DNA from: Sulfuricella denitrificans skB26 | GTDB lineage: Bacteria; Pseudomonadota; Gammaproteobacteria; Burkholderiales; Sulfuricellaceae | Assembly: GCF_000297055.2 (NCBI RefSeq) | Contig: NC_022357.1 | Span: forward strand, 1,995,501 to 2,059,500 | Length of the DNA: 64,000 nucleotides | Direction: 5' to 3' | In this document: positions 20,734 through 50,206 of the stretch, piece by piece | Numbering within the stretch: the stretch's first letter is position 1 | How the letters are laid out: the number at the start of each line of letters is the position of its first letter | The notes under the pieces: model-generated | What the model saw: the letters and a program-made list of their open reading frames with translations, nothing else | Told to the model about the DNA's origin: nothing | The model's database searches: none | Made by a program: the position numbers and the translations under genes

Positions 20734-20740
20734 TGGCACT

Positions 20741-28634: not shown

Positions 28635-28651
28635 ACGGCATGAAATTTGCT
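28635..28651 (+). promoter_or_regulatory. Candidate sigma-54 promoter of the PEP-CTERM gene
   Basis: GGCATGAAATTTGCT has GG at 28637-28638 and GC at 28649-28650 with exactly 10 nt between, the spacing required by sigma-54 holoenzyme. It is 66 nt before the ATG. PEP-CTERM genes of other betaproteobacteria are known to be activated through RpoN and the PrsK/PrsR pair. Confidence 0.65.
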
Positions 28652-28716
28652 AGTACTCAATTAGAGGTCTGAAAAAAAAACGTTTCGCGTAAAGGTTAGG
28701 CCAGAGGGAGTACGAC

Positions 28717-29571
28717 ATGAAACCAAATACACTTATTGCGGCAATTCTTGCTTTAGCCGGGATCGCGCTGGCCTTGCCAGTTCAGGCCACGACTACATAT
28801 TCATATTCTTGGGACCTTGGCGCGAGCGGGATAGAAACTGGCGCCGGGACCTATGGAAATACACGGACTTACGCCGCTACCGGAACCCCGTCTCCAGCAC
28901 CCGCCAATAACGTAGTCGCCAGCGCTTGGGCCGACACCACTTCCGGCACATCCACCACAGCTGCTACCGCGTCCAACAGCACGCTAAACAGTGCTTACCT
29001 GGGATCTTACACAGGCGGACTGGGTGTATCGAATCGGCTTGAGGGGATTGGCGTTTCAGCGCCTAACCACGCCTTGGACAATGCGACAAATTATGACAGC
29101 ATCGAGTTTAAATTCGGTACCGCCACGACTCTCAGCGCAGTAACGATTGGCTACCCATCCGCCACCTCTACTTATGATTCCGATATTAGCGTTTTGGCCT
29201 GGATCGGCGCAGGCAGCCCTACATTGCTTGGAAACAAGTATGGCTCTCTGGTGGGATCAGGTTGGTCAGTGATCGGCAACTATTCCAATGTGGCAACGCT
29301 ACCAAACCAAACGATCAATCTTTCCACCGGCGTGTCGTCCAGCTACTGGATAGTAGCCGCCTACAACAGCGTTTTTGGCTCTACCTGCCTTGACGCCGTA
29401 ACTGGGCAGTCTGTCGCCTGTAATACTCCGACAACTAGTTACGATTACGTTAAGGTGCAAATGCTGGCGGGATCCACCACTACCACGCCCCCTCCCGGCG
29501 TTCCTGAACCGGCCACACTGCTTCTGTTTGGCGCCGGTCTGTTGGGCCTGGTCAGGATGCGTCGGCAGTAA
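28717..29571 (+). CDS. PEP-CTERM sorting-domain protein
   Basis: A 284-residue exported protein. It has a signal peptide (LIAAILALAGIALALPVQA), a Ser/Thr/Ala-rich low-complexity body with few charges, and a C-terminal sorting signal: VPEPATLLLFGAGLLGL followed by RMRR. An exosortase would recognise the PEP motif and process the protein at the inner membrane on its way to the surface. AGAGGGAG precedes the ATG. The body matches no enzyme that I recognise; an extracellular matrix or surface role is inferred from the family. Confidence 0.9.
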   Translation: MKPNTLIAAILALAGIALALPVQATTTYSYSWDLGASGIETGAGTYGNTRTYAATGTPSPAPANNVVASAWADTTSGTSTTAATASNSTLNSAYLGSYTGGLGVSNRLEGIGVSAPNHALDNATNYDSIEFKFGTATTLSAVTIGYPSATSTYDSDISVLAWIGAGSPTLLGNKYGSLVGSGWSVIGNYSNVATLPNQTINLSTGVSSSYWIVAAYNSVFGSTCLDAVTGQSVACNTPTTSYDYVKVQMLAGSTTTTPPPGVPEPATLLLFGAGLLGLVRMRRQ

Positions 29572-29608
29572 GCTCTGACGGGTTTGCCGAAGACATAAAT
29601 ATTTATCC

Positions 29609-29642
29609 AAAATGGAGTCCCTGAGTGGACTCCATTTTTATT
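29609..29642 (+). terminator. Rho-independent terminator after the PEP-CTERM gene
   Basis: ATGGAGTCC (29612-29620) pairs with GGACTCCAT (29627-29635) around a 6-nt loop, and TTTTTATTT follows. It lies 38 nt after the stop codon. Confidence 0.85.
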
Positions 29643-29893
29643 TGCGCACCTTAAATAATAGATTATTCATGCCCTGACGGCATCCATCCGAATCTGATCG
29701 TCTCCTTTACTCCAATGTCTCTTGTGGGGCGGGTACTGAGCTTAGATTTTCCCGATAACCGACTCTGGAACTGATCCATCAGCCGTGCTGCGGATTTCGA
29801 GAACGGCTACTTTGAGGGCTGTTTTAATCACGGCATCCAGATGCCCGAATTTGCTTTTGGCATTCGTGCTTTTTGTCGTGTTAAACTTTTCAC
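29643..29893. other. Intergenic region before nth
   Basis: There is no clear gene. On the minus strand, 29747-29893 stays open as about 45 codons ending at a TAA near 29747 (…AVIKTALKVAVLEIRST…), but it has no start and would run into the nth promoter. It may be a decayed 3' fragment or chance. Confidence 0.3.
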
Positions 29894-30532
29894 ATGAATA
29901 CCGCTAAACGTCGCGAAATCTTCACCCGCTTTCGCGCCGCCAACCCCAAACCCACCACTGAACTGGTCTACCGCACCCCATTCGAACTGCTAGTGGCGGT
30001 GGTGCTATCGGCCCAAGCCACGGACAAGAGTGTCAACCTCGCCACCGCCAAGCTGTTTCCGGTGGCCAATACGCCGCAAAAGATGCTCACCCTCGGCCAG
30101 GAAGGGCTGGAGTCCTACATCAAGTCCATCGGCCTGTACAAGAGCAAGGCCAGGCACCTGATCGCAACCTGCCGCCTGCTGCTGGAACAGCACGACAGCG
30201 AAGTACCGCAAAACCGGGAGCAACTGGAAAAACTGCCCGGCGTCGGACGCAAAACTGCGAATGTAATTTTGAACACCGCCTTCGGCCAGCCTACCATCGC
30301 AGTAGACACCCACATCTTCCGTGTCGCCAACCGTATCGGTATCGCGCCGGGCACGACCGTACTGGAAGTGGAAAAGAAGCTGCTCAAGTTCATCGCGCCG
30401 GAGTTCCGTCACGATGCACACCACTGGCTGATCCTGCACGGACGCTACATCTGCAAGGCGCGCAAGCCGGACTGCCCGCACTGCTTAATCAACGACCTGT
30501 GCGAATACAAAGAGAAAATCTTACCCTTATGA
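29894..30532 (+). CDS. nth: Endonuclease III
   Basis: DNA glycosylase/AP lyase that removes oxidised pyrimidines in base-excision repair. The 212 residues are the usual size. It has the helix-hairpin-helix LPGVGRKTANVILN with the catalytic Lys, the catalytic Asp in AVDTHIFRVANR, and the 4Fe-4S cluster C-x6-C-x2-C-x5-C in CKARKPDCPHCLINDLC. nth often neighbours rnf operons in other bacteria; here it lies 4.5 kb away in the same orientation. It overlaps the next gene by ATGA. Confidence 0.96.
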   Translation: MNTAKRREIFTRFRAANPKPTTELVYRTPFELLVAVVLSAQATDKSVNLATAKLFPVANTPQKMLTLGQEGLESYIKSIGLYKSKARHLIATCRLLLEQHDSEVPQNREQLEKLPGVGRKTANVILNTAFGQPTIAVDTHIFRVANRIGIAPGTTVLEVEKKLLKFIAPEFRHDAHHWLILHGRYICKARKPDCPHCLINDLCEYKEKILPL

Positions 30533-31629
30533 GCATCGCCACCGGACTTGCCACTGCCCCCATCGCCGAACCACAGCTTGCCGGTCTGGCTGTTACGGCC
30601 GCCATGGAGAAGGCTGGACTGACTATCGCCAACAGCGTACTGCTGTTCCTCACCCCGGAGTTCGCTCGCGACCCCAAGCCCGCCCTTCTGGCCGCTTCCC
30701 GGGCCAGCAACTGCACCCGCATTATCGGCTGTTCGGCAGCCGGCATTTTTACCGATCAGGACTGGGTGCTGGACGCGCCCGCCGCAGCCGCAATGGTGTT
30801 TGGCGGCGACATCAGCTTGGCCCCGGCGCCACAACCGCTGGCGGACGACCTGATCCTGTCTCTGGCCGCCCCGAATGCGCTCAACTCCGCCTGGATCAGC
30901 GAACCGGGACGGCGATTCGGCGGGGTGTCGGGAGATGCGACCGGTCAGGGTCCGTTCAAGGTTTGGTGCGGCGGTAGGACGGCCGAAAACGGCCGCTGCG
31001 AAACCCGGATCGCCAGTGCAAGCGGTGTCATCGGCGTTTCCCAGGGCATCCGCGCCCTGAGCGAACCACTAGAAATTACCCAGGCCAGCGGCTACGATGT
31101 AATCTCGCTCGGGCAGCAACCTGCCATGAACGTGCTGACGCGCGAACTGCCTCTCGACCTCCGCAGCGAAAACGGACTTCCCCTGCACCTGCTGATGGCC
31201 GGGATCATCCACGGCGATCCGGCGACGGCTATCGCCGATGGCCGCTTCCGCCTCGCACCGATCATTTCCGCCAATGCTGAGGATCGCTCGGTTACCCTGT
31301 CCGCGCGGCTTGCGCCCGGCGAGCAGATGTTCTGGGCGGTGCGCCAGCCGCTAGCCGCCGAGCGTGACATGCGCCTGACGATAGACCGCTTGCAGCAGGA
31401 ACTCGATGCCCCGCCCGATTTCGGCCTGCTGTTCCCCTGCATGGGACGCGGCCCCTATTTCTACGGCGGGGTGGACCGTGACCTCGACCTGGTCAAGCAG
31501 CGCTTCCCGGGCATGCCGCTGATCGGCTTCTATGGCAATGGCGAAATCGGGCCGCTGGATGGCGCCAACCAGTTGCTGCAGTACGCTGCCGTTCTCGGTC
31601 TGTTCGCTCGGATGAGCGCTCATGTTTAG
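30529..31629 (+). CDS. FIST-domain sensory protein
   Basis: A 366-residue soluble protein with FIST N and FIST C regions, a sensory module proposed to bind small ligands such as amino acids. Typical features are RIIGCSAAGIFT near residue 65, PLHLLMAGIIHGDP, and the C-terminal GLLFPCMGRGPYFYGG with PLIGFYGNGEIGPL. ATG 30529 overlaps the nth stop, so the two are cotranscribed. No output domain is fused. The ligand is unknown. Confidence 0.85.
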   Translation: MSIATGLATAPIAEPQLAGLAVTAAMEKAGLTIANSVLLFLTPEFARDPKPALLAASRASNCTRIIGCSAAGIFTDQDWVLDAPAAAAMVFGGDISLAPAPQPLADDLILSLAAPNALNSAWISEPGRRFGGVSGDATGQGPFKVWCGGRTAENGRCETRIASASGVIGVSQGIRALSEPLEITQASGYDVISLGQQPAMNVLTRELPLDLRSENGLPLHLLMAGIIHGDPATAIADGRFRLAPIISANAEDRSVTLSARLAPGEQMFWAVRQPLAAERDMRLTIDRLQQELDAPPDFGLLFPCMGRGPYFYGGVDRDLDLVKQRFPGMPLIGFYGNGEIGPLDGANQLLQYAAVLGLFARMSAHV

Positions 31630-32044
31630 CCCCAGTCGCGACCAGGCACGCCGTTTCTTCTTCGAGTCCTGGCAAAAATTCCACGCCAGGCAGCCGCTAT
31701 CCGGCCTCGAAACTATCGCCCTGGAACTGATGCAGCAACACCCGGAATACCACGCCATCTTCGACAACCCGGAACGCTACGTCGAGCGCGATTATTTGCC
31801 TGAGTCGGGAGAAACCAACCCCTTCCTTCACTTGGGCCTGCATCTGGCAATCCGCGAGCAAGTGCCGATCGACCAGCCTCGCGGCATCGCCGCCCACTAC
31901 CGGCGCCTTCTGGAAAAGATGGGTAGCACGCACGACGCCGAGCATTTGATCATGGACTGCCTGGCAGAAATGATCTGGCAGGCGCAACGAAACCACACGG
32001 CGCCGGACGCCGAAATTTATCTTGCCTGCCTGTCCAGATGTTAA
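31622..32044 (+). CDS. DUF1841 family protein
   Basis: A 140-residue protein of unknown function with the family features [34 protein letters not shown] and a conserved [16 protein letters not shown]. It overlaps the FIST gene by 8 nt, so it belongs to the nth-FIST transcript. The family is largely restricted to beta- and gammaproteobacteria, which supports the host assignment. Confidence 0.85.
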
Positions 32045-32142
32045 AATCCATTTCATGCTTGATTGACAAAAATCGTAGCGCTTCAAAACATTTCCAATTA
32101 CCCTCTCCTTTTTTTAACTTCTACGAGACCAAGGATCAACCG

Positions 32143-32718
32143 ATGAAAAAACAATTGCTTGCCTCAGCCACCCTGCTGCTCGCCACAACCACCTTCCAGG
32201 CCGTAGCCGACGACATGGCCCAGTATCAGGAAGAAAGCCGCAAGATCGTCAAGGAATTCGCCTCGCAACTGGGCGGCGAAATGCAAAAAGAAATGAAGGC
32301 CAACGGGCCGGTCGGCGCCATCAAGGTGTGCCGCGACGTAGCGCCCACCATCGCCTCCGAAGTTTCGCGCAAGAACGGCTGGAACGTTAGTCGTAAGTCC
32401 CTGAAGGTGCGAAATGCTGCGCTGGGCATGCCGGATGCCTGGGAACAAAAAGTGTTGTCCGACTTTGAAAAACGCATGGAAAAAGAAAACCCGGCCAACA
32501 TGGAATTCGCCGAGGTCGTCACCGAACCACAGGGCAAATTCTACCGCTACATGAAAGCCATCCCGGTGCAGGATGTCTGCCTGAAATGTCATGGTGGAGA
32601 TGACACCGTCGCCCCCAACGTGAAGGAAGCACTGAAGGCCGAATACCCCCACGACAAGGCCACCGGCTACACCCTGGGCCAGATCCGCGGCGGCTTCAGC
32701 ATCAAGCGCCCCCTGTAA
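32143..32718 (+). CDS. Periplasmic DUF3365 haem-binding protein
   Basis: A 191-residue secreted protein with a signal peptide ([20 protein letters not shown]). It has one c-type haem motif, CLKCH, near residue 149, and a Tll0287/DUF3365 pattern ([17 protein letters not shown], ending [11 protein letters not shown]). In this family the domain binds haem and is used for sensing or electron transfer. It is isolated, with its own terminator. The redox partner is unknown. Confidence 0.83.
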
Positions 32719-32730
32719 CTTTCGCTCACC

Positions 32731-32760
32731 GAACGCCCCGCCCAAAGCGGGGCGTTTTCA
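32731..32760 (+). terminator. Rho-independent terminator after the DUF3365 gene
   Basis: AACGCCCCG (32732-32740) pairs with CGGGGCGTT (32748-32756) around a 7-nt loop, followed by TTCATTT. It is 14 nt after the stop codon. Confidence 0.85.
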
Positions 32761-32790
32761 TTTCACCCGACCACCCGGCAGGACTCGCAC

Positions 32791-34506
32791 ATGCACACAG
32801 AAAGCTTTATCGCAGGCAAGGATGCCTCGCTGGAATCGTCGATCGGCACCATGCAATCCAGACTGGACAATCTGGGTTTCCATATTGAAGAGCGCTCCTG
32901 GCTGAACCCGATAGACGGTGTCTGGTCGGTGCATATCCGCGATCGCGACTGCCCTATGCTATTCACCAACGGCAAGGGCGCATCCAAACCGGCGGCGCTA
33001 GCGAGCGCACTGGGCGAGTTTTTCGAGCGCCTTTCCTGCAACTATTTCTGGTCGCATTATTATCTGGGCGAAACGATTGCCAATCGCTCATTCACCCATT
33101 ATCCGCAAGAACAATGGTTCAAGCCGGGAGACGATGGCGACTGGCCAGAAGAGCTGCTCACACCGGAACTGCGCGCGTTTTACAACCCGGAAGGCAGCAT
33201 CGATGCCGACACCCTGGTCGATCACAATTCCGGCAATATCGAGCGCGGCATCTGCGCCCTGCCTTACATCCGCAGCCGCGACGGCATCCGCGTCTGGTTC
33301 CCGGTCAACATCATCGGCAACTTGTACGTCAGCAATGGCATGTCGGCCGGCAACACCCCCGCCGAGGCACGCACCCAGGCGCTGTCGGAAATTTTCGAAC
33401 GCCACGTCAAATTCCGCATTATCAGCGAAGGGCTGTGCCTGCCGGAAGTGCCGGACGAGGTGATCGCCCGCTTTCCCGCCATAGAGGCAGGCATCCGCGC
33501 ACTGCGCGCGGCGGGCTTCGGCATCCTGGTCAAGGACGCCTCGCTGGGCGGGCAATACCCGGTCATGAACGTGACCCTGCTCAACCCGCACGACCAGGGC
33601 TGCTTCTCCAGTTTCGGCGCCCATCCGCGCTTCGAAATCGCTTTGGAGCGCTCCCTCACCGAACTGCTGCAAGGCCGTGCGCTGGATGCGTTGGGTGGCT
33701 TCCCCGAGCCGGGCTTCGACCTGGACGAAATCGCCAGCTCGCCGAATATCGAAATCCATTTCGTCGATTCCAGCGGCATCATCAGCTGGAACTTCCTCGG
33801 CGACTCGCCTGATTTCGAATTCAGTGACTGGAATTTCAGCACCACCACCGAAGAAGACTATGCCTGGCTGACCGAGCGCATCCACGCCGAAGGCCGCGAT
33901 ATCTATATCGCCGACTTCGCCCATCTGGGCGTCTACGCCTGCCGCATCATAGTGCCAGGCATGTCGGAGATTTACCCGATCGACGATCTGGAATGGGAAA
34001 ACAACAGCGTCGGCAACGCCATCCGCCCCGCCATCCTGCGCCTGACGGAGTTGAGCGACGACGAATGCGCCGATCTGCTCAACACGCTGAACGAACTCGG
34101 CCTGGACGACCAGCGACCGGTTGCGGCACTGATCGGCCTGGCCGCCGATGCCGGCTCATTCTGGAAAGACTTGCGCGTAGGCGAGCTAAAAACCCTGCTG
34201 GCGCTGGCGATCGGGGATGAAGAAGCGATCCGTGAAGGCTGCGATTGGGTACGCCATTTCGAGCAACTGAACGAACAGCGCCGCAAGGTTTACCGCTGTA
34301 TCGAAAGCCTGCTCAACCTGGACGATGCCGCTCCGTACAGCGACTCCCTGAAGCACCTTTACGGCGCAGATACGCTGCAACAGGCGCAAGCCCTGCTCAG
34401 CGGGGAGCAGCGCTTTTTCGGCCTGCACTCACCGGGGATGGCGCTGGAAGGGTGTGATATGCACCAACGCTTGCTTGCCGCTTATGGAAAACTGCACGTA
34501 ATATAG
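32791..34506 (+). CDS. ycaO: YcaO-type cyclodehydratase-fold protein
   Basis: A 571-residue YcaO with the E. coli YcaO architecture: an ATP-binding YcaO domain (about 1-400) and a C-terminal helical domain (about 430-571). The ATP-binding motifs are ALGEFFER (73-80) and SEIFER (199-204). YcaO enzymes activate peptide backbones with ATP; the E. coli protein supports RimO-dependent methylthiolation of ribosomal protein S12. No precursor peptide, E1-like partner or dehydrogenase lies nearby, so a RiPP role is unlikely. It is a single gene flanked by hairpins. Confidence 0.88.
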   Translation: MHTESFIAGKDASLESSIGTMQSRLDNLGFHIEERSWLNPIDGVWSVHIRDRDCPMLFTNGKGASKPAALASALGEFFERLSCNYFWSHYYLGETIANRSFTHYPQEQWFKPGDDGDWPEELLTPELRAFYNPEGSIDADTLVDHNSGNIERGICALPYIRSRDGIRVWFPVNIIGNLYVSNGMSAGNTPAEARTQALSEIFERHVKFRIISEGLCLPEVPDEVIARFPAIEAGIRALRAAGFGILVKDASLGGQYPVMNVTLLNPHDQGCFSSFGAHPRFEIALERSLTELLQGRALDALGGFPEPGFDLDEIASSPNIEIHFVDSSGIISWNFLGDSPDFEFSDWNFSTTTEEDYAWLTERIHAEGRDIYIADFAHLGVYACRIIVPGMSEIYPIDDLEWENNSVGNAIRPAILRLTELSDDECADLLNTLNELGLDDQRPVAALIGLAADAGSFWKDLRVGELKTLLALAIGDEEAIREGCDWVRHFEQLNEQRRKVYRCIESLLNLDDAAPYSDSLKHLYGADTLQQAQALLSGEQRFFGLHSPGMALEGCDMHQRLLAAYGKLHVI

Positions 34507-34541
34507 GCGGTTACCACTGCCTATTATTCCGTATAAAACAT

Positions 34542-34569
34542 AGCCCGAGCAGGGGGCTCTGCGCGGGCT
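34542..34569. terminator. Hairpin between convergent ycaO and OB-fold genes
   Basis: AGCCCGAGCAG (34542-34552) pairs with CTGCGCGGGCT (34559-34569) with one mismatch. It sits between convergent stops, and on the minus strand it is followed by ATGTTTTAT, so it more likely ends the minus-strand gene. Confidence 0.55.
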
Positions 34570-34580
34570 GTCTCAACCGA

Positions 34581-35291
34581 TTACTGCTGCAGCGTCGCCT
34601 CTTCGATGAGCACTTTATACGCATAGCCTGCACCGAAATCCTTGTCAGTACGAACGACGCCCTTCACCGTCACGACATCCCCGACCTTCGCCTGGCTCAT
34701 GGTTGTCACGAGTACGTCGTTCGAACCGGTCACAGCAGAACCCGAACCATCGCGCAGATGAATCCAGTTTTTCCCCATGATCTGCGAGTTGTACTTCACG
34801 ACCTTGCCGCGAACCAGAACAGGCTTGTCCTTCAGTTCGGCGCCTTTGGTCATGATTTCCGCAACGGTCCGAGCGTTCGCGCCGCTGGCCCTGGGGACAT
34901 GGACATCACCGACATCCACCGTCTTGGCGACGCCGGAGTGAGCCGTAGCCATATCATGGCCCGCAGCCTGCACGACCCCTCCCGCACCACTCAAGGTGCC
35001 GAAAACTATCGTCGGAAAAGTCTTCTTCAGCGACTTGCTCTCGAAGTTCTTCATGACCATCACGTTTTCGATCGTGACTTCGGTGCCTTTCTTAACTGGC
35101 GACTTGTTGACCGCAGCCCAGGTCTCGCCGTCCCTAGTCTTGAGGCGGAGGTAAGTATAGCTCTCGACATCCTTGACATCGAGAACCTCGCCCTTGACGA
35201 CAGTGGGCACAGGTGGGATGGCGTCAGGATTTTCACCTGCCAAAACGAATGGGGCAGCAACAATCATGCAGAACGCCAACAGGGCTTTCAT
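34581..35291 (-). CDS. Periplasmic protein with two OB-fold-like repeats
   Basis: A 236-residue exported protein with a signal peptide (MKALLAFCMIVAAPFVLA). Two repeated beta-rich modules are visible: VVKGEVLDVKDVESYTYLRL and, about 100 residues later, VLVRGKVVKYNSQIMGKNWI with HLRDGSG. Both resemble the NrfJ/OB-fold group found next to cytochromes. No haem motif or catalytic residues are apparent. It may bind a partner or small ligand in the periplasm; function not established. Confidence 0.7.
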   Translation of the reverse strand: MKALLAFCMIVAAPFVLAGENPDAIPPVPTVVKGEVLDVKDVESYTYLRLKTRDGETWAAVNKSPVKKGTEVTIENVMVMKNFESKSLKKTFPTIVFGTLSGAGGVVQAAGHDMATAHSGVAKTVDVGDVHVPRASGANARTVAEIMTKGAELKDKPVLVRGKVVKYNSQIMGKNWIHLRDGSGSAVTGSNDVLVTTMSQAKVGDVVTVKGVVRTDKDFGAGYAYKVLIEEATLQQ

Positions 35292-35365
35292 GGTCTGGAA
35301 TACTCCTTCGAAACAGGGCCTGTGAGTATAGCAGAAGGCCAGTCAGCGGCGCCGACTCAGGCTCT

Positions 35366-36691
35366 TCATCGCACCCTGTGGACGGTCTGCCCGAGCATTT
35401 CCGGCGTGATCAGCGTGATGCCGCGCTCGGTGACGTGGAAACACTGTTTGTCACGCTCCGGGACGATACCGGCCGAGAAACCGTCGGGAATCTTGCAGTG
35501 CTTGTCCACTACCACGCGCTTCAGTGTCACATGGCGACCGATCTCGACGTTGGGCAGGATGACCGAGTCCTGTATCAGGCTGTAGTCGCCCACGTACACT
35601 TTCAGGAACAACAGGGAGCGTTCGATGGTCGCGCCGCTGATGATGCAACCGCTGGAGATCAGCGAATCCATCGCATGGCCGCGCCTGCGGTCATTGTTGA
35701 AAATAAACTTCGCCGGCGGCAACTGCTTCTGATGGGTCCAGATCGGCCAGGCATCATCGTACAGATTAAGCTCGGGTGTCACCTGCACCAGATCCATGTT
35801 GGCTTCCCAGTAGGCGTCCACCGTACCGACATCGCGCCAGTACGGCACATCGCCCACCATGTTGACGCAGCTGTCCGCGAAGCGATGGGCAATAACACGG
35901 TTGCGCGTCACGAGGTAGGGAATGAGGTCCTTGCCGAAATCGTGGCCTGACTCCGGGTCGTCGTGATCGCGGATGAGTTGCTCGTAGAGGAAGCGCGCGC
36001 CGAATACGTAAATACCCATGCTCGCCAGTGCGCTATCCGGTCTGCCGGGCATCGCTGCCGGGTGTTCCGGCTTTTCGTGGAAGTAGGTTACCCGCCCTTC
36101 CTCGTCCACGCCTATGATACCGAACTCCCGCCCCTCAGCGCGCGGCACCTCGATGCAGGCGACGGTAACATCCGCCGCTTTCGCGACATGATCGGCAAGT
36201 ATGCGACTGTAATCCATCTTGTAGACATGGTCGCCGCAGAGGATCAGCACATATTCCGGCGCGCAACTGCGCAAAATGTCCAGATTCTGAAAGACGGCGT
36301 TTGCCGTGCCCTCATACCACCCCTCCTTGACGCGTTGCTGGGCCGGCAAAACATCGATGAACTCGTTGAACTGGTCATCGAGAAAGCTCCAGCCCCGCTG
36401 GATGTGGTGAATCAGGCTGTGCGCCATGTACTGGGTCGCCACCCCGATGCGCCGAATGCCGGAATTGATGCAGTTGCTGAGCGGAAAATCGATGATGCGC
36501 AGCTTGCCGCCGAATGGAACGGCCGGCTTGGCGCGCCAGTCGGTCATCTGCTGCAGCCGGCTGCCGCGTCCGCCGGCAAGCACCATGGCGTAAGTCTTCT
36601 TCGTCAGGGCGCCGATGAAGCGTGGCGCCAGCTCCGCCCTGTACGGACAGTAACTAGTATGAGCACAGGTTTCGTCGTCATGTTCTTTCAT
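35366..36691 (-). CDS. glgC: Glucose-1-phosphate adenylyltransferase
   Basis: Makes ADP-glucose from ATP and glucose-1-phosphate, the committed step of glycogen synthesis. The 441 residues include [24 protein letters not shown] (read as two motifs: the nucleotide loop and the activator region), [14 protein letters not shown] and the GREFGI substrate site, then a left-handed beta-helix tail with hexapeptide repeats. ATG 36691 follows GGAGG with 9-nt spacing; an in-frame GTG eight codons upstream is less well placed. It uses glucose-1-phosphate, which the phosphomutase at 8483 could supply. Confidence 0.95.
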
Positions 36692-36734
36692 CAGGCCGCA
36701 CCTCCAATTCTCCACGTGCCTCGGGATTTCGCCG

Positions 36735-37869: not shown

Positions 37870-37972
37870 GATTCAGTTTCCTTTTTCAGGTTTTCCTTTT
37901 CAATGCTGCCAGCCGCAAAGTCCACCGCGTCATCGAACTGAAACCGCGCCGGCGTGGGCCAGACGACTGCCG

Positions 37973-41667: not shown

Positions 41668-41755
41668 ACCTGGATTATCTGGTTCCAAATCCTGTTTTTG
41701 CCTTTCTGCTTCGATGTTACCATAGCCATCACACACCCGTTTTCCACGTCCCCCC

Positions 41756-44566
41756 ATGTCCGGAACTTCATTGCTGCCTCTGATCGTCGCAACCGCCTTC
41801 ATCGGCTGTCTCCTTCCCGCACTGCTGGCCCGCTTCGGCAGGAGAGTGGCCGCCCTGGGCGCGGCCGGGGTCATGGCGGGCTGCCTGGCATTGCTCGCCC
41901 CCCTGGTGCCGACCGTGCTGGCGGGGGAAACGCTGGTAACGGCCTACCCCTGGCTGCCCGCCTACGGCCTCGACCTTTCCTTCCGGCTCGACGGGCTGGG
42001 GCTGCTTTTCAACTTGCTGATACTCGGCATCGGCCTGCTGGTGGTGCTCTACGCCTACTACTATCTGCCGGAAAGCGATCACCTGGGGCGTTTCTATTCC
42101 TACCTGCTGCTGTTCATGGCGGCCATGCTCGGCGTCGTACTGTCCGAGAACCTGTTGTTGCTGGTCGTGTTCTGGGAGATCACCAGCATTTCGTCCTTCC
42201 TGCTCATCGCCTACAAGCGCGAGCATCGCGACTCGCGCATCGCCGCCCGCATGGCGCTAGCCGTCACTGGCGGCGGCGGGTTGGCGCTGCTCGCCGGGGT
42301 ACTGCTGCTCGGCTACATCGCCGGCAGTTTCGAGTTTTCGACCGTGCTGGCCGAAGGAGAGCGTATTCGCGGCCACAGCCTGTATGCGCCGATGCTGATC
42401 CTGGTCCTGCTCGGCGCTTTCACCAAATCGGCCCAGTTCCCGTTCCATTTCTGGCTGCCCAACGCCATGGCGGCGCCAACGCCGGTGTCGGCCTACCTGC
42501 ATTCGGCAACCATGGTGAAAGCCGGCGTTTTTCTGCTGGCGCGGCTGCATCCGGCGCTGGCCGGCAGCGAGCTGTGGTTCTGGCTGGTCAGCGGAGTCGG
42601 TGCAACCACGCTGGTGTATGCGGCTTACATGGCCTTTCACCGCTACGACTTCAAGGGGCTGCTGGCCTATTCCACCATCAGCCACCTCGGCCTGATCACG
42701 CTGCTGTTCGGACTCGACACGCCGCTATCGGTGGTGGCCGGCGTGTTTCACATCATCAACCATGCCATTTTCAAGGCCTCCCTGTTCATGGCCGCCGGCA
42801 TCGTCGATCATGAATGCGGCACGCGCGACATGCGGCGGGTGAACGGGCTGTTCAAGTTCATGCCGATCACCGCCACGCTGGCCATCGTCGCCGCCGGTTC
42901 CATGGCTGGCGTGCCGTTGCTGAACGGTTTTCTCAGCAAGGAGATGTTCTTTACCGAGACGGTCGGCCATCCGGTGTTCGAGGAGATACGCTGGCTGCTG
43001 CCATTATTCGCCACGGTGGCAGGCATTCTCGCTGTGGCCTATTCGTCGCGCTTCATCCACGACGTATTCTTCAACGGCGACCCCATTGACCTGCCGCGCC
43101 AGCCCCACGAGCCGCCGCGCTGGATGCGTGCGCCGGTGGAGGTGCTGGTAGTGCTGTGCCTGCTGGTCGGCATCTTCCCGCAATGGAGCGTCGCCCCTCT
43201 GCTCGCAGCTGCGGCTGGCGCAACGCTGCTAGCGCCTCTGCCTGCCTTCGAGCTGGCGGTGTGGCACGGCTTCAACCTGCCATTTATCATGAGTCTGGTG
43301 GCGCTGGCGGGCGGCGTCACCGTCTACGCCCTGCGCAAGCCGCTTTTCGCCCTCCACGATCGACTACCGTCGATCCATGCCCACATCGCCTTCGAGCGCC
43401 TTTATGAAAGCCTGAAGGCCCTCGCGTGCAGCATCGTGAGCTGGCTGGACAATAGATCGCTGCAACGTTACCTGGCGCTCTTCATCGCCTTCGTGCTCAG
43501 CCTTGGCGGCTGGGCCTGGTTCTCGGGGCCACCGACGCTTGCCGCCGCGGCATACCAGCCGGCCGATAGCGCTGCTTTCGCGGCCCTGGCTACCCTGATC
43601 GTGGGCGCACTGGGTGCAACCCTGCTGCACCGGCACCGCCTCACCGCCATCGTGTTCACCAGCGTCGTTGGTCTGGTCGTGGCGCTCACCTTCGTGCGCT
43701 TCTCGGCACCGGATCTGGCACTGACCCAGCTGGCGGTGGAAGTGGTCACCATCGTGCTCCTGTTGCTGGTTCTCCATTACCTTCCCCAAGCCTCCCCCGC
43801 CGAGGATTCCGGCCTGCGACTGACGCGCGATGCCGCGCTGGCCGTTGGCGCCGGCGCGGGTCTGGGGGCGGCAGCCTTCGCCATGATGACCTCGCCATTC
43901 GAGACGATTTCCGGCTTCTACCTCGACCAGTCGGTGACGGGGGGTGGCGGGGCCAACGTGGTCAACGTGATCCTGGTGGATTTCCGCGGCTTCGACACCC
44001 TGGGTGAAATCACCGTACTGGCCATGGTGGGCCTGGCTGCCCATGCCATGCTGAATCGGCTGGTGCTCACCGTGCCCGAGCGCGATATCGACGGCCGGCC
44101 TTGGGCAACGGAACGTCACCCGCTGTTCCTGTCCATGCTGATGCGCCCGCTGCTGCCCCTGGCACTGGCGGTATCGATCTTCATTCTGCTGCGCGGCCAC
44201 AACCTGCCGGGGGGTGGTTTCGTCGCCGGCCTGGTCACCGGCGTGGCCCTGGTCCTGCAATATCTGGCCAGCGGCATCGATTTCGCCCAGCCGCGCCTGC
44301 CCCGCCACAAAACCAGGCTACTGGCGCTGGGACTGCTGCTTGCGGGCGGCACCGGCGCGGCGAGCTGGCTGTTCGGCCGACCCTTCCTTACCAGCGCCCA
44401 CGGCCATTTCACCCTGCCGCTGATTGGAGAGATCGAACTGGCCTCGGCCATGGTGTTCGACCTGGGCGTGTACATCGTGGTCGTGACCGTGGTGCTGATG
44501 GTGCTGGCACAGTTGGGCCGTCTGTCGCGCCACGGCTGTCCTGAAAATTTTGGAGAAGCCGCCTGA
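41756..44566 (+). CDS. mrpA: Mrp Na+/H+ antiporter subunit A (MrpA-MrpB fusion)
   Basis: A 936-residue giant membrane subunit related to respiratory complex I NuoL. The NuoL-like core (about 100-550) includes FYSYLLLFMAAMLGVVLSEN and HFWLPNAMAAPTPVSAYLHS, with conserved Lys and Glu for ion transfer. The C-terminal part (about 770-930) is an MrpB domain, the fused form typical of proteobacteria. It starts a tightly packed operon and overlaps mrpC by 1 nt. Confidence 0.94.
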   Translation: MSGTSLLPLIVATAFIGCLLPALLARFGRRVAALGAAGVMAGCLALLAPLVPTVLAGETLVTAYPWLPAYGLDLSFRLDGLGLLFNLLILGIGLLVVLYAYYYLPESDHLGRFYSYLLLFMAAMLGVVLSENLLLLVVFWEITSISSFLLIAYKREHRDSRIAARMALAVTGGGGLALLAGVLLLGYIAGSFEFSTVLAEGERIRGHSLYAPMLILVLLGAFTKSAQFPFHFWLPNAMAAPTPVSAYLHSATMVKAGVFLLARLHPALAGSELWFWLVSGVGATTLVYAAYMAFHRYDFKGLLAYSTISHLGLITLLFGLDTPLSVVAGVFHIINHAIFKASLFMAAGIVDHECGTRDMRRVNGLFKFMPITATLAIVAAGSMAGVPLLNGFLSKEMFFTETVGHPVFEEIRWLLPLFATVAGILAVAYSSRFIHDVFFNGDPIDLPRQPHEPPRWMRAPVEVLVVLCLLVGIFPQWSVAPLLAAAAGATLLAPLPAFELAVWHGFNLPFIMSLVALAGGVTVYALRKPLFALHDRLPSIHAHIAFERLYESLKALACSIVSWLDNRSLQRYLALFIAFVLSLGGWAWFSGPPTLAAAAYQPADSAAFAALATLIVGALGATLLHRHRLTAIVFTSVVGLVVALTFVRFSAPDLALTQLAVEVVTIVLLLLVLHYLPQASPAEDSGLRLTRDAALAVGAGAGLGAAAFAMMTSPFETISGFYLDQSVTGGGGANVVNVILVDFRGFDTLGEITVLAMVGLAAHAMLNRLVLTVPERDIDGRPWATERHPLFLSMLMRPLLPLALAVSIFILLRGHNLPGGGFVAGLVTGVALVLQYLASGIDFAQPRLPRHKTRLLALGLLLAGGTGAASWLFGRPFLTSAHGHFTLPLIGEIELASAMVFDLGVYIVVVTVVLMVLAQLGRLSRHGCPENFGEAA

Positions 44567-44892
44567 TGGAAACCGTTGTCGCCATTGCCATCGGCGTACT
44601 CACCGCCTGCGGGGTGTTCCTGATTCTGCGTGCACGCACCTTCCCGGTCGTACTGGGCCTGACCTTGCTGTCCTACGCGGTGAATCTGTTTCTCTTCGCC
44701 AGCGGACGGCTGAGGCTGGATGCACCGCCCCTGATAAGGGCCGGCGCCGCCTACACCGACCCGCTACCCCAGGCTCTGGTGCTGACCGCCATCGTTATCG
44801 GTTTCGGCATGACCGCCTACCTGCTGATGCTGGCGCTGCGCGCGCTGGCTGAAACCGGCGATGACCATGTGGATGGACGGTTGAAACCATGA
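44566..44892 (+). CDS. mrpC: Mrp antiporter subunit C
   Basis: A 108-residue NuoK-like subunit with three helices (GVFLILRARTFPVVLGLTLL, YAVNLFLF, and ALVLTAIVIGFGMTAYLLML). It overlaps mrpA by TGATG and mrpD by ATGA. It forms part of the membrane channel with the A and D subunits. Confidence 0.93.
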   Translation: METVVAIAIGVLTACGVFLILRARTFPVVLGLTLLSYAVNLFLFASGRLRLDAPPLIRAGAAYTDPLPQALVLTAIVIGFGMTAYLLMLALRALAETGDDHVDGRLKP

Positions 44893-46415
44893 ACGCTCAT
44901 GCCGCCATCCTCCCCATCCTGATTCCCTTTGCTGCCGCGCTGCTGCAACTGGCGGGCGGCCGCCGCGGGCTGCCTTTCCAGCGCAACGTCGGGCTGGGCG
45001 CGGCACTGCTCGGCATCATCGCAACCGCCTGGCTGGTGCAACTGGCCGATGCTGGCGCCATGCTGGTTTATGCCCTGGGAAACTGGACGGCACCTTTCGG
45101 CATCGTGCTGGCGGTAGACCGCCTAGCCGCCGGCATGTCCCTGCTCACCGCGCTGCTGGCAGGCGCATCCCTGCTCTATGCCAGCGGTGGTTTCGACAGC
45201 CGGGGCCGCCACTTCCATCCGCTGTTCCAGTTGCAGATCATGGGTATCCAGGGCGCCTTCCTGACCGGCGACCTGTTCAACCTGTTTGTCTTTTTCGAGG
45301 TAATGCTGCTTGCCTCCTATGCGCTGTTGGCCCACGGCGAAGGACTGGCGCGCACCCGCGCAGGCCTGGCCTATGTGGTGCTGAACCTGGCTGGATCGGC
45401 CCTGTTCCTGATCGCACTGGGTCTGCTCTACGGGACACTGGGCACCCTCAACCTGGCCGATGTGGCGCTACGCCTGCAAAACCCGGATCACAATATCGCC
45501 CTGGCAAGGCTGGCGGGCGCGCTGCTGATTGCCGTATTCGCCCTCAAGGCGGCGCTGCTGCCCCTGTCTTTCTGGCTGCCCCACGCCTATGCTTCCGCCG
45601 GTGCGCCCGTGGCGGCGCTATTCGTCATCATGACCAAGGTCGGTATCGTCGCCATCCTGCGGGTACAGGCCGTGGCCTTCGCCCCGGCTGCGACGATGGC
45701 TGACCTGCTTGACTGGCTGGTTCCGCTGGCGCTGGCGACACTCCTGTTCGCCGCCCTGGGCGCTCTCGCCGCCACCCGGCTGCGATATTTCGCCGCCTGG
45801 CTGGTGCTGGTTTCCGCCGGTACGCTGCTGGTGGTTCCCTCCTATGCGCAGGCCGGTATCACCGCCGCGGCCCTGTATTACCTGTTCCAGTCCACCTTCG
45901 TCGTTGCTGCCTTCTTCCTGCTGGCGGAATTGATCGCCGAGCGACGCGGGAAGGTTTCCGATGCCATTAAACCCGGGCCGGCATTCCATGCTCCCTGGCT
46001 GGCACTGGGCTTTTTTCTGGCTGCCATCAGCGTTGCCGGATTACCCCCCCTTTCCGGCTTTCTCGGCAAACTCATGCTGCTTTCCGCAGTGCGGGAAACG
46101 CCGGCGGGCCCGGCAATCTGGATTATTTCGCTGACAGCAGGTTTTCTGATCATGGCCGCCTTGGCAAGGGCCGGCAGCCGCCTGTTCTGGAAGCACAAGT
46201 CGGATACTCAGCCCCATGCAACCCCAACCATCGCATGGCAGCCTGCGGCGGCCGTCCTGCTGCTGGTCGCCGCCGGCCCACTGCTGGCGCTCTTCGCCCG
46301 ACCGGTGTCGGATTACGCTGCCCGTGCCGCGGTCCAGCTGCATACCCCCGGCGCCTATGTCAACGCGGTATTGGGCACGAACAGGCATACCATCATCCGG
46401 GAGACACGACCGTGA
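44889..46415 (+). CDS. mrpD: Mrp antiporter subunit D
   Basis: A 508-residue NuoN/NuoM-like ion-translocating subunit with about fourteen helices. LTGDLFNLFVFFEVMLLASY (conserved Glu) and LPLSFWLPHAYASAGAPVAA (conserved Lys region) are typical. It works with MrpA to exchange Na+ or K+ for protons. It overlaps mrpC and mrpE. Confidence 0.94.
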   Translation: MNAHAAILPILIPFAAALLQLAGGRRGLPFQRNVGLGAALLGIIATAWLVQLADAGAMLVYALGNWTAPFGIVLAVDRLAAGMSLLTALLAGASLLYASGGFDSRGRHFHPLFQLQIMGIQGAFLTGDLFNLFVFFEVMLLASYALLAHGEGLARTRAGLAYVVLNLAGSALFLIALGLLYGTLGTLNLADVALRLQNPDHNIALARLAGALLIAVFALKAALLPLSFWLPHAYASAGAPVAALFVIMTKVGIVAILRVQAVAFAPAATMADLLDWLVPLALATLLFAALGALAATRLRYFAAWLVLVSAGTLLVVPSYAQAGITAAALYYLFQSTFVVAAFFLLAELIAERRGKVSDAIKPGPAFHAPWLALGFFLAAISVAGLPPLSGFLGKLMLLSAVRETPAGPAIWIISLTAGFLIMAALARAGSRLFWKHKSDTQPHATPTIAWQPAAAVLLLVAAGPLLALFARPVSDYAARAAVQLHTPGAYVNAVLGTNRHTIIRETRP

Positions 46416-46903
46416 TGCGCCGCCTCTTTCCCCGCCCCGCCCTGTCCGTGGCCATTTTCCTGCTCTGGGCCGCGCTTACCAATGCGGCCTCGCTAGGCAT
46501 GCTGTTGCTGGGCGCCGTACTGGCGCTGGCGCTTCCTTTCGTCACGCGGCCCTTCTGGCCCGACGCACCGCGCCTCGCTCGCCCCGGCACGATGTTGACA
46601 CTCGCGGCACGGGTAGTCATGGATATCGTTATCGCCAACTGGGCCGTGGCACGCCGTGTGATCGGCCCGATTGCCCGCCTCGAACCGGCCTTCGTCGAGG
46701 TGCCGCTGGATTTGCGCGACCCCTTCGTCGCCACGATCCTCGCCAGTATCGTGTCGCTCACGCCGGGCACCGTGTCCATCGACGTGGATCAGGAGAGCTG
46801 GGTACTCTGCCTGCATGCGCTTGACGCACCCGATCCCGCTGCCCTGATCCGGGAAATCAAGCAGCGCTACGAGGCGCCGCTCAAGGAGATATTCGCATGT
46901 TGA
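46412..46903 (+). CDS. mrpE: Mrp antiporter subunit E
   Basis: A 163-residue subunit with two N-terminal helices and a conserved soluble part (SLTPGTVSIDVDQ then LCLHALD). GTG 46412 overlaps the mrpD stop by GTGA and has GGGAG 8 nt upstream; ATG 46415 is the other option. It overlaps mrpF by 7 nt. Confidence 0.9.
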   Translation: MMRRLFPRPALSVAIFLLWAALTNAASLGMLLLGAVLALALPFVTRPFWPDAPRLARPGTMLTLAARVVMDIVIANWAVARRVIGPIARLEPAFVEVPLDLRDPFVATILASIVSLTPGTVSIDVDQESWVLCLHALDAPDPAALIREIKQRYEAPLKEIFAC

Positions 46904-47166
46904 CGCTCGCCGTTGAGGTCGGTTTCGTGCTCATCGGGCTGGCTATGACCCTCAATCTCTGGCGCCTGGTGCGCGGACCGGACGCCACCGATCGCATTCT
47001 GGCGCTGGATACGCTGACCATCAACGCCATCGCGCTGCTGGTGCTGTTCGGCATCCGCGCCGGCAGCAGCGCCTATTTTGAAGCGGCGCTGGTACTGGCC
47101 GCCATGAGCTTCGTCGGCACCATGGCGCTATGCAAATATCTGCTGCGCGGAGACATTATCGAATGA
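46897..47166 (+). CDS. mrpF: Mrp antiporter subunit F
   Basis: An 89-residue, three-helix subunit. LWRLVRGPDATDRILALDTL is the family motif. It overlaps mrpE by 7 nt and mrpG by 4 nt, so all subunits are translated in a coupled way. Confidence 0.92.
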   Translation: MLTLAVEVGFVLIGLAMTLNLWRLVRGPDATDRILALDTLTINAIALLVLFGIRAGSSAYFEAALVLAAMSFVGTMALCKYLLRGDIIE

Positions 47167-47489
47167 ACGTCATCATCGAATTCACCGTCTCTGCCCTGAT
47201 CCTGCTGGGTGCCGTGTTCGCTCTGCTGGGTTCGATAGGGCTCGTCCGCCTGCCGGATTTTTTCACTCGTCTGCACGGCCCCACCAAGGCCACCACCCTG
47301 GGTGTGGGCGCCATGGTGCTGGCCTCAGCCATCTACTTCACCGCCACCCAGCCCGGCGTCAGCCTGCATGAGATCGCCGTGATGGTCTTCCTCTTTATCA
47401 CCGCGCCAGTGACCGCCCACCTGCTGGCCAAGGCGGCCTTGCACCGGCGTGGGAATCACGTTGCGAAACACCAGGAAAAAGTGAAATGA
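47163..47489 (+). CDS. mrpG: Mrp antiporter subunit G
   Basis: A 108-residue, three-helix subunit. GSIGLVRLPDFFTRLHGPTK is the family motif. It is the last Mrp subunit; the complete set A(B)CDEFG is present, so the complex is likely functional. It overlaps the next gene by 4 nt. Confidence 0.93.
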   Translation: MNVIIEFTVSALILLGAVFALLGSIGLVRLPDFFTRLHGPTKATTLGVGAMVLASAIYFTATQPGVSLHEIAVMVFLFITAPVTAHLLAKAALHRRGNHVAKHQEKVK

Positions 47490-49096
47490 GCACCTGGACG
47501 ACAGCCGGCGGCCTGCTCGGCGGCATCGGCCTGTTCCTGCTCGGCATGGGACTGATGACCGACGGCCTCAAGCTCGCCGCCGGCCCGGCGCTGGAGCGCA
47601 TCCTCGCCCATTCCACCAAAACCCGCTTGCGCGGGCTGGCTTCAGGTGTACTGGTCACCGCGCTGGTGCAGTCTTCCAGCGCCGTGACAGTGGCTGCCAT
47701 CGGCTTCGTGAATGCCGGACTGCTCACGCTGGGGCAATCGATGTGGGTGCTGTTCGGCGCCAACGTCGGCACCACCATGACCGGCTGGCTGGTGGCGCTG
47801 GTCGGGCTGAAGTTCAAGATCGAGGTGCTGGCGCTGCCGCTGATCGGCATCGGCATGGCGCTGCGCCTTTCCGGCGACGGCAAACGGCGCGGCGCACTGG
47901 GACAGGCGCTGGCAGGATTCGGCGTGCTGTTCCTGGGCATCGACATGCTCAAGGAATCCTTTTCCGGGCTATCCGCGGATTTCAGCATGCCGGAAGGCGA
48001 GGGGATCAGGGACACGCTGATGCAGGTGCTGATCGGCATCGCGCTTACCGTGCTGATGCAATCCTCCAGCGCCTCCCTGACCATCGCGCTGACTGCCGCC
48101 CAGGGCGGACTGCTCACGGCCCAGGGTGCCGCCGCCGTGGTGATAGGCGCCAATATCGGCACCACGGTCACCGCGCTGATCGCCTCCATCGGCGCCACGC
48201 CCAACGCAAAACGGGCCGCCGCCGCCCATATCCTGTTCAATCTCCTGACCGGCGCCGTGGCGCTGGCGCTGCTACCCTGGCTGGTATCGGCCATTGGCAC
48301 GGCGGGCGAAGCGCTGGAACTCGGTTCGTCGCCGGCGGCCAAACTGGCCCTGTTTCACACTACCTTCAACCTGCTCGGCGTGATCCTGATCTGGCCTATC
48401 GCCGAACGCATGGTTCTGTTTCTCGGAAAACGTTTCCATGCCGCCGAAGAAGATGAAGCCCGGCCACGCTATCTGGACGCCAACATCGCAACGGTACCGG
48501 CGCTGGCGCTGAACGCCCTGGAGCAGGAAGTGCGACGCATGGGCGGCATTGCCCTGCGCATGATGCGTGAGGCCATGGCGGGCGCCGCCTACGACAAACT
48601 GGCGCGGGATCAGCAAATCGTGGCCAAGCTGAATCAAGCGGTGGCAGATTTCATTTCACGCATCAACCAGGCCGGCATGTCGCAAGACAGCGCCCAGCGC
48701 CTGCCGCATATTCTGCGCGTGGCGCGCTACTATGAGGCGGTGGCCGAACTGGCCATGGAGGCCGCTGCTGCAGCACGCGAAACGCCCCTGCCGACGCTGA
48801 TCGAAACGGGTAGCAGCTTTCTCGATCAGGTAACCCGGCTTTTTTCCCGCATTGACCCAGAGGGATATCAGGAATATGCCGCCGACGTCGATACCGGCTT
48901 GCAGAGCCTGGAAGGGGACTATCAGATGTTGAAAGCGGAACTCCTGGAGGCCGGCGCCCTGAGCCGCCTGCCCGTGGCAGATATGGATGCTCGCTTGCGC
49001 GCCGCGAGCGCCATCCATCGCGCGGTGCAGCAGGCCGCCAAGGCAGCGCGCCTGCTTGTCGCCAAGGCATCTGCACGTGAGGCAGCACAGGAATAA
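47486..49096 (+). CDS. Na/Pi cotransporter family protein with PhoU domain
   Basis: A 536-residue membrane protein. Two inverted QSSSA repeats (LVQSSSAVTVAAIGFVNAG and LMQSSSASLTIALTAAQGG) mark the NptA/PNaS transport core (about 1-310). A PhoU-like helical domain follows (about 330-530). The family imports phosphate with Na+. It overlaps mrpG by 4 nt, so it shares the Mrp transcript; Mrp could supply the Na+ gradient it needs. Confidence 0.9.
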   Translation: MSTWTTAGGLLGGIGLFLLGMGLMTDGLKLAAGPALERILAHSTKTRLRGLASGVLVTALVQSSSAVTVAAIGFVNAGLLTLGQSMWVLFGANVGTTMTGWLVALVGLKFKIEVLALPLIGIGMALRLSGDGKRRGALGQALAGFGVLFLGIDMLKESFSGLSADFSMPEGEGIRDTLMQVLIGIALTVLMQSSSASLTIALTAAQGGLLTAQGAAAVVIGANIGTTVTALIASIGATPNAKRAAAAHILFNLLTGAVALALLPWLVSAIGTAGEALELGSSPAAKLALFHTTFNLLGVILIWPIAERMVLFLGKRFHAAEEDEARPRYLDANIATVPALALNALEQEVRRMGGIALRMMREAMAGAAYDKLARDQQIVAKLNQAVADFISRINQAGMSQDSAQRLPHILRVARYYEAVAELAMEAAAAARETPLPTLIETGSSFLDQVTRLFSRIDPEGYQEYAADVDTGLQSLEGDYQMLKAELLEAGALSRLPVADMDARLRAASAIHRAVQQAAKAARLLVAKASAREAAQE

Positions 49097-49098
49097 CC

Positions 49099-49680
49099 AT
49101 GAGCAATATAATTGACCGCCTGAAACGCCTGCTGCCCGACCCGGAAACGGTGCGCAAGAGCCGCTGGCTGCGCTGGATCGGGCCGGCCCTGCACCATCCC
49201 CGACTATGGCGGCCCACCCGGCGCGGTATTGCCCTGGGCATCGCACTTGGAGTATTTTTCGGGCTGCTCGTTCCCCTCGCCCAGATTCCTCTTTCCGCAG
49301 GCATGGCCGTGCTGTTGCGTGCCAGCGTGCCCACCGCCATCGCCAGCACGCTGGTCACCAATCCGGTCACCTTCGGCCCGATCTACTATGCGGCCTACCG
49401 CATCGGCGTCACGCTGATCGGTGAGGACGAAGCACGCGCGACAAAAAAACCGCCGATACCCCGTGGAGAAGGCGCTGCCGCATGGCTGGCATCCGCCTGG
49501 GATCGCATCACCACAGTAGGCAAACCGCTACTGCTGGGCTTGGCGATCATGGCCAGCACCCTGGGTCTGCTCGCCTATCTGATAGTGACCTTGTTGTGGC
49601 GGCTAAAAATCAGTCTGTCCTGGCGGCGGCGCCGTCGCAAACCTGCTCCGCCCCGCGAGGACACAGAGCAAAAGGATTGA
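49099..49680 (+). CDS. DUF2062 membrane protein
   Basis: A 193-residue protein with a conserved N-terminal part (FDRLKRLLP-like start, then HHPRLWRPTRRGIALGIALG) and about three helices, including TLVTNPVTFGPIYYAAYRIG, the DUF2062 core. The C-terminus is basic. It starts 2 nt after the Na/Pi gene and ends the operon. Function unknown. Confidence 0.85.
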   Translation: MSNIIDRLKRLLPDPETVRKSRWLRWIGPALHHPRLWRPTRRGIALGIALGVFFGLLVPLAQIPLSAGMAVLLRASVPTAIASTLVTNPVTFGPIYYAAYRIGVTLIGEDEARATKKPPIPRGEGAAAWLASAWDRITTVGKPLLLGLAIMASTLGLLAYLIVTLLWRLKISLSWRRRRRKPAPPREDTEQKD

Positions 49681-50190
49681 TCTACGCTTACCCTGTCCGA
49701 GCCATGAATGTCCCAGTTGAGCCAATTAAGAGACCTCCATAAAGATTCCAGATAGCGGACGCTTAACGCCAAATTGGTTGAACTCAATTTATCAGCGCCA
49801 CGTCACCGATGTGCCGCTTCGTTTCCAGTCCATAGGCGAGCAGTTCCTGAGCAGGACACTGCCGAATGTGCATGCGAAAAGCCGTGGGTAAGCATATAGA
49901 ACGTTCCAAGCTGCTACACCCAAAGCTAATATCACCTTGGGCGAACTGTTTCATTGGATGCCCGAATTTTGTAACGGTTTACCTTACTCTGAAAGCCACC
50001 AATAGCTGAGCATTTTTAATGCATGCCGATGCTAATGGGATAGCAAAGCAACAATTTTGATCAATCACTTGCAAACAATCCGGAGCAAGATGCAGTTTGT
50101 CGGATTTTTTTACACTTGATGAGCAAATAATGCTGCAAATCCCCAAATAAAATGTGTAACAGATTGTTTTTGCATAATATATAATATATT
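49681..50190. other. AT-rich intergenic region with weak small frame
   Basis: About 510 nt without a supported gene. On the minus strand, 49784-49954 is an open frame of 56 codons (MKQFAQGDISFG start, ending ETKRHIGDVALIN), but no ribosome site precedes it and I do not recognise it. The sequence is clearly more AT-rich than its neighbours, which fits a regulatory region or decayed DNA. Confidence 0.3.
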
Positions 50191-50206
50191 TGGCACGGTT
50201 TGTGCT
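50155..50206 (+). promoter_or_regulatory. Sigma-54 promoter of the second PEP-CTERM-type gene
   Basis: TGGCACGGTTTGTGCT (50191-50206) is close to the sigma-54 consensus TGGCACG-N4-TTGCW, with GG at 50192-50193 and GC at 50204-50205, exactly 10 nt apart. It is 57 nt before the ATG. TGTAAC at 50155-50160 lies about 36 nt upstream of the GG, as at 28602 before the other PEP-CTERM gene. Confidence 0.75.

Follow-up and report, generated by a model that had tools for sequence, protein, structure and literature searches.

A PrsR-type enhancer paired with a sigma-54 site precedes two genes for predicted exosortase-dependent surface proteins of Sulfuricella denitrificans skB26, whose only detected rpoN contains an in-frame TAG

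The 64,000-nucleotide stretch of the Sulfuricella denitrificans skB26 genome analyzed here (the window) contains two genes for surface proteins with exosortase-type tails, hereafter gene 1 and gene 2. Upstream of each, a 17-base PrsR-type enhancer (motif 1) is paired with a sigma-54 -24/-12 site, an arrangement to which we refer as the module. Based on these sequences, it is likely that an enhancer-dependent promoter of known type drives each gene and that both genes belong to a PrsR/sigma-54 regulon with two exosortase outlets. The features concerned are as follows:

25677..28532, plus strand: prsT, TPR-repeat protein of the PEP-CTERM system, directly 5' of gene 1 (TIGR02917, 611.5 bits, cut-off 312.2)
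28546..28562, plus strand: putative PrsR-type enhancer of gene 1, TGTCGGAATTTTTTACA, 25.1 bits
28636..28651, plus strand: putative sigma-54 -24/-12 site of gene 1, CGGCATGAAATTTGCT, 73 bases 3' of the enhancer, with the ATG (28717) 65 bases on
28717..29571, plus strand: gene 1, exosortase-dependent surface protein XDP1 with a PEP-CTERM tail (NF041927, 173.8 bits, cut-off 125)
50098..50114, plus strand: putative PrsR-type enhancer of gene 2, TGTCGGATTTTTTTACA, 23.5 bits
50191..50206, plus strand: putative sigma-54 -24/-12 site of gene 2, TGGCACGGTTTGTGCT, 76 bases 3' of the enhancer, with the ATG (50263) 56 bases on
50263..51072, plus strand: gene 2, surface protein with a VPLPA-CTERM tail (TIGR03370, 32.4 bits, cut-off 25.35)

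The initial annotation had proposed sigma-54 promoters before 28717 and 50263 because of their strict GG-N10-GC spacing. Both sequences are present where it had placed them and the promoters themselves find support, but the spacing contributes nothing to it: the window contains 1114 GG-N10-GC matches, while 1101.7 (standard deviation 28.3) are expected, and 31 of 100 shuffles delivered at least 1114. Taken alone, this criterion is uninformative and at chance level. To score the sites we used a matrix trained on PEP-CTERM genes that lie outside the window (eight sigma-54 sites); a further 340 kb of this genome, corresponding to 680,000 positions, served as background. The site of gene 1 scores 17.2 bits, which two background positions reach, and that of gene 2 15.4 bits, which three reach; on both strands of the window they rank first and second. 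A loose pattern, TGGCAC-N5-TTGCW with up to two mismatches, was rejected as unusable (2143 matches in the genome versus 1341 in the control).

The decisive element, overlooked by the initial annotation, is the shared enhancer. In the module described by Haft et al. (2006; PMC1569441), a 17-base motif 1 that ends in TTTACA is followed, after 32-92 bases, by a sigma-54 motif 2; this arrangement precedes 99 of 167 proteobacterial PEP-CTERM genes, and PrsR was predicted to bind motif 1. The two enhancers found here both end in TTTACA, belong to the TTTTACA type and differ in one base. With a matrix derived from nine other sites, no other motif 1 site of the window scores as high as these two, nor does any of the 680,000 background positions. 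The spacers (73 and 76 bases) lie within the range given in 2006, and so do the distances to the start codon (65 and 56 bases, within 23-221). A pattern derived from both enhancers has only these two exact matches genome-wide; allowing up to three mismatches yields 46 sites versus 23 in the control. Strong pairs of enhancer and sigma-54 site occur twice in the window and never in the 340 kb background, while 14 were found in 20 regions around PEP-CTERM genes, regulators and other motif 1 sites, although these regions were picked partly for motif 1 sites and some of the sites also trained the matrix. Thus it is the paired enhancer, and not GG-N10-GC, that is the evidence needed for calling such promoters. 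Sigma-54 and PrsR-type control of both genes is well supported by the sequence, and the mechanism of both promoters is of an already known kind. The system resembles the published module in motif 1, spacer, motif 2, start distance and the presence of prsK, prsR and prsT; it differs in possessing two PrsK/PrsR pairs, in including VPLPA-CTERM and other surface genes and in its truncated rpoN.

One further site of this type was found:

28169..28185, plus strand: PrsR-type site within the 3' end of prsT, TGTCGGAATTCTTAACA, 20.6 bits, third best of the window

It is unchanged in the related genome G010, though this stretch is coding and conserved regardless. Hence, it may be a second enhancer or a chance product of coding sequence.

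A scan of the genome for the same promoters, as the initial annotation had suggested, confirmed that they recur before PEP-CTERM genes and others: the exact module pattern occurs 17 times, compared to once in the reversed control. According to our own reading of the scored loci, a strong module stands directly before 10 of the 21 credible TIGR02595 genes (23 matches, less C1:2704515 and C1:1981193, which are not credible). At an eleventh gene (C1:1309843) a short open reading frame (ORF) lies between module and gene, and C1:776791, which has a VPVPAAAW tail and falls outside the TIGR02595 matches, is preceded by a strong module as well. Other strong modules were found before a transglycosylase with Sel1 repeats (C1:3078545), a TPS/nidogen-like protein (C1:436261) and a 218-residue protein without family (C1:2392634), which is followed by an HprK-related kinase A. 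Two more are modules by pattern with a weak sigma-54 score; one precedes C1:1312740, whose Slam-type TPR match stays under the threshold, the other a protein without family (C1:1313946). Roughly half of the PEP-CTERM/VPLPA-CTERM genes of the genome, and some further surface genes, have this module upstream and would form one regulon. The 21 kb between the two promoters, to which the initial annotation had pointed, is therefore uninformative, as the genome holds many more such genes and modules. A strong module is also found upstream of a YcgR-like PilZ protein (C1:554829, minus strand; L078:1799-2533), which matches Pfam PilZN and PilZ and remains under the NCBIfam YcgR cut-off. Both G010 and G011 retain this module, which hints that the PrsR regulon is linked to c-di-GMP and motility. 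Another gene with a VPxPA tail (C1:1197844-1198061, minus strand) has three upstream motif 1 sites about 100 bases apart.

Comparison of 41 genomes, with up to 31 first-look candidates scored per genome, extends this picture. The 12 genomes with a PrsR over the cut-off comprise 90 modules (control 9) and the 29 without comprise 33 (control 12); the presence of PrsR is associated with module number (Mann-Whitney p 2e-6, related genomes being treated as independent).

The upstream region of gene 1 is conserved beyond this strain. Besides NF041927, its tail matches TIGR02595 (25.2 bits, cut-off 16). Of 60 relatives searched, G010 has an orthologue at 84%, while G041 and G049 gave weaker matches. 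At the G010 locus, motif 1 is retained with two changes and the sigma-54 site is retained as TGGCATGAAATTTGCT, with a better first base. We further analyzed the best 80 of 96 XDP1 relatives from a genome contig collection (loci L215-L294). The module is present upstream of 61 of 79 homologues (L257 was dropped for too little upstream sequence), and neither on the reverse strand nor in or after the gene, our two controls, was it found once. Of the 80 loci, 74 have a PrsT-like gene upstream in the same orientation and two have one on the opposite strand, while in four none was found at E 1e-20 in the stretch examined. In the controls such a neighbor occurs at one of 23 PEP-CTERM loci of the own genome (that of XDP1 itself; 1.5 kb either side of the tail), at none of 29 rpoN loci and in none of 17 background stretches. 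The counts of 61/79 and 74/80 are not independent, because the set includes near duplicates (L216/L217 and several Roseateles/Mitsuaria loci). Because of these two counts we regard prsT, enhancer, sigma-54 site and XDP1, judged by their sequences, as a conserved unit, of which a partial literature search found no description. That the two window sites are chance matches, a reading favored by the chance level of GG-N10-GC by itself, is thereby extremely improbable: matrix scores, paired enhancers, conservation in G010 and the XDP1 homologues with their empty controls all stand against it, and we rejected a chance origin on the basis of matrix, controls and conservation.

A comparable arrangement was studied in Aquincola tertiaricarbonis RN12 (Xia et al., 2023; PMC9850573), where pepA lies by prsT and has a mapped -24/-12 start; as reported there, rpoN1 mutants are planktonic and high pepA transcription requires rpoN1. 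Both systems share a PEP-CTERM gene adjoining prsT, a -24/-12 promoter and a predicted enhancer. However, in Aquincola pepA is found upstream of prsT, while XDP1 is found downstream, and the Aquincola strain has four rpoN paralogues, while one rpoN was found in skB26. Start and RpoN1 dependence were measured in Aquincola, whereas in skB26 they are predicted from the sequence.

While gene 1 is indeed a PEP-CTERM gene, as the initial annotation had assumed for both, gene 2 belongs to the VPLPA-CTERM class. Its match to TIGR02595 is marginal (15.8 bits alone and 16.2 with neighbors, cut-off 16). No relatives of gene 2 were found in the genome contig collection and no full-length match in 30 relatives; the matches in G010 and G011 concern mostly the tail, with the widest one spanning residues 49-268 at 28%. 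The genome encodes two exosortases, XrtA (TIGR03109, 360.6 bits, cut-off 208) and XrtD (TIGR04152, 595.6 bits, cut-off 400), and VPLPA-type tails are the class named for XrtD, the VPLPA-specific exosortase. Since one tail is PEP-CTERM and the other VPLPA-CTERM, the two proteins probably use different exosortases and thus different surface routes, gene 1 via XrtA and gene 2 via XrtD, as family names suggest. The known XrtD/VPLPA-CTERM system (TIGR04152, TIGR03370) is similar in that XrtD and VPLPA-type tails exceed their cut-offs here; it differs in that XrtD occurs here alongside XrtA and a second PrsK/PrsR pair.

In total, two PrsR, two PrsK and three PrsT exceed their cut-offs in the genome. 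PrsR1 (C1:3071074) and PrsR2 (C1:1307255) each have a PrsK beside them, PrsK2 having a full frame of 711 residues. Consequently, "PrsR" is not a single regulator in this strain. Among the 41 genomes, two PrsR were found only in skB26, G010 and G011, and the same three have an XrtD over the cut-off. Within this genus, the second PrsK/PrsR pair would therefore appear to accompany XrtD. XrtB is the second exosortase in both G035 and G036 and also the exosortase of G025, while G009 has an XrtD-like exosortase under the cut-off and no PrsR match; the subfamily was assigned for 10 of 21 exosortases, that of G026 being among those left out. PrsR2 forms a fully supported clade of its own, and 29 of 450 alignment columns are diagnostic for it, of which one column (S for R) falls in the DNA-binding region, together with a two-residue C-terminal extension. 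Enhancers ending in CTTTACA are commoner in the genomes with two PrsR (16/41 versus 4/48), although the three genomes belong to one genus and their sites are not independent. This is suggestive of a regulator-specific split of enhancers, and with two PrsR clades and two exosortases one could envision split control, in which PrsR1 acts on gene 1 and PrsR2 on gene 2 as an XrtD-type substrate, with different timing. We consider this unlikely: in skB26, PrsR1 and PrsR2 have the same recognition helix (SRPTLYDLMNRHG), and the window sites, which differ in one base, are both of the TTTTACA and not of the CTTTACA type.

Instead, we favor one enhancer-dependent regulon with the following mechanism. 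Sigma-54 RNA polymerase would sit in a closed complex on the -24/-12 site. Promoter opening would require an AAA+ activator of the PrsR type, phosphorylated and bound to the 17-base enhancer that lies 73-76 bases upstream. The two PrsK/PrsR pairs, given their identical recognition helices, would probably act through one enhancer type. As outlets, XrtA would handle the PEP tails, including that of gene 1, and XrtD the VPLPA tails, including that of gene 2. Sites, spacing, recurrence, conservation upstream of XDP1, family membership and gene counts were observed; binding, activation, sorting and co-expression are inferred from them.

Several observations weigh against this reading. Motif 1 was first seen by eye, following Haft et al. 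(2006), and a matrix derived from other genes was applied to it only afterwards. At the threshold used, 18 of the 79 XDP1 homologues lack the module. G020, with seven modules and XrtA, and G026, with nine modules, have no PrsR match. In G010 and G011 the recognition helix of PrsR1 reads SRPALYDLMKRHG, unlike that of PrsR2. Finally, the only rpoN found (C1:575334-576743, minus strand, outside the window) contains an in-frame TAG.

The rpoN frame reads ...SDSQIADILAK-stop-GIVVARRTVAKYRES..., i.e., the TAG lies four residues before the RpoN box, and the truncated product would retain the helix-turn-helix (HTH) while losing the box. In all 29 relatives in which this position was read, being those among 40 for which loci were given, the residue is Gln (CAA or CAG). 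No internal stop was seen among the rpoN matches of the 40 relatives, some of which are fragments, and no second rpoN was found in the genome. TAG is an ordinary stop here, as it terminates 50 of 238 ORFs of at least 200 residues in the regions sampled. A suppressor tRNA (CTA anticodon) was not among the seven tRNA genes detected in the window and the 641 kb scanned, about one fifth of the genome. A complete RpoN, which the module would need, was thus not found in the assembled genome. Loss of the RpoN box abolishes promoter binding. It is this box that binds the -24 element (PMC7057263). With the sole RpoN found ending just before the box that reads the -24 element, skB26 may not express the regulon, provided that the TAG is neither an error nor read through. 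Control by RpoN and PrsK/PrsR, as proposed by the initial annotation, is supported in part, namely at the sequence level by enhancer, spacing, conservation and the presence of prsK, prsR and prsT, while the two PrsK/PrsR pairs and the premature TAG complicate it. Its prediction that both proteins are made together is sound as a design, given the shared module, and doubtful in this strain.

If sigma-54 is dead without its box, both promoters would be idle; gene 1 might then be transcribed by read-through from prsT, and gene 2, if at all, by sigma-70. For the latter, one candidate was detected:

50156..50185, plus strand: sigma-70-like hexamer pair GTAACA-18-TATAAT upstream of gene 2, 10 of 12 matches, may be chance

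We hold this scenario to be a serious possibility, if short of a probable one. It is in line with the TAG at a position that is Gln in all 29 relatives read, with the failure to find a second rpoN, with the role of the RpoN box, and with the fact that no terminator-like site was found between prsT and gene 1. There is also a precedent: in Neisseria, rpoN carries frameshifts, truncations or HTH losses across isolates, and 269 of 290 meningococci retain the RpoN box while the HTH is absent (PMC6755734). As in skB26, a sigma-54-type promoter is retained there beside an rpoN product without a DNA-binding element; in skB26, however, a single stop codon in one genome removes the RpoN box and leaves the HTH. 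On the other hand, the promoters, both PrsR, both PrsK and the remaining rpoN look intact, and the stop might be an artifact of assembly or culture. The sigma-70-like pair is at chance level (one versus 1.2 expected from shuffles), and none was found before gene 1.

Alternatively, the TAG might be an assembly error or a minority variant, with sigma-54 functional and both genes co-produced, which we regard as quite conceivable without giving it our preference. The change from Gln to TAG takes one base, the rpoN frame beyond the stop is intact and conserved, and the entire regulon is retained. Compared to G011, the nearest relative, 45 silent and nine residue changes were counted in 480 codons, stop included; because of this ratio, rpoN looks constrained until a recent change or error. 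However, the genome consists of two contigs with a completeness score of 99.99% and stems from what is most likely, as we infer, a pure-culture type strain. It is conceivable, though less likely than not, that a natural amber mutation has left the sole rpoN found without its box and switches off an otherwise intact PrsR/sigma-54 surface regulon at one stroke.

Other features of window and genome were recorded in passing. Two rnf clusters lie within 13 kb of each other, at 12749-16604 (rnfC, rnfG, rnfE) and 20155-25388 (rnfA, rnfC, rnfD, rnfG, rnfE), and between gene 1 and gene 2 an operon for a multisubunit cation/proton antiporter was found (41756-46903; subunits A, D and E matched). The skB26 genome has been described as complete (PMC4440963), and one report places its arxAB on a plasmid (PMC6397845). 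The second contig (86.6 kb) encodes an ArrA-like molybdoprotein under the ArrA cut-off, and its start delivered only 1%-coverage matches against a plasmid collection.

Taken together, the module prediction of 2006 is borne out in a sulfur oxidizer, and XDP1 genes behind prsT, with the module in between, occur in many Beta- and Gammaproteobacteria. With a complete regulon retained next to a truncated RpoN, this genome offers a natural test of the sigma-54 dependence of these surface proteins. If the amber mutation is real, two classes of exosortase substrates, an adhesin-like protein and a YcgR-like protein would be switched off together, which would mean that the strain has recently lost, in culture or in nature, the ability to build matrix or flocs; with leaky read-through, the mutation would rather act as a dimmer switch.

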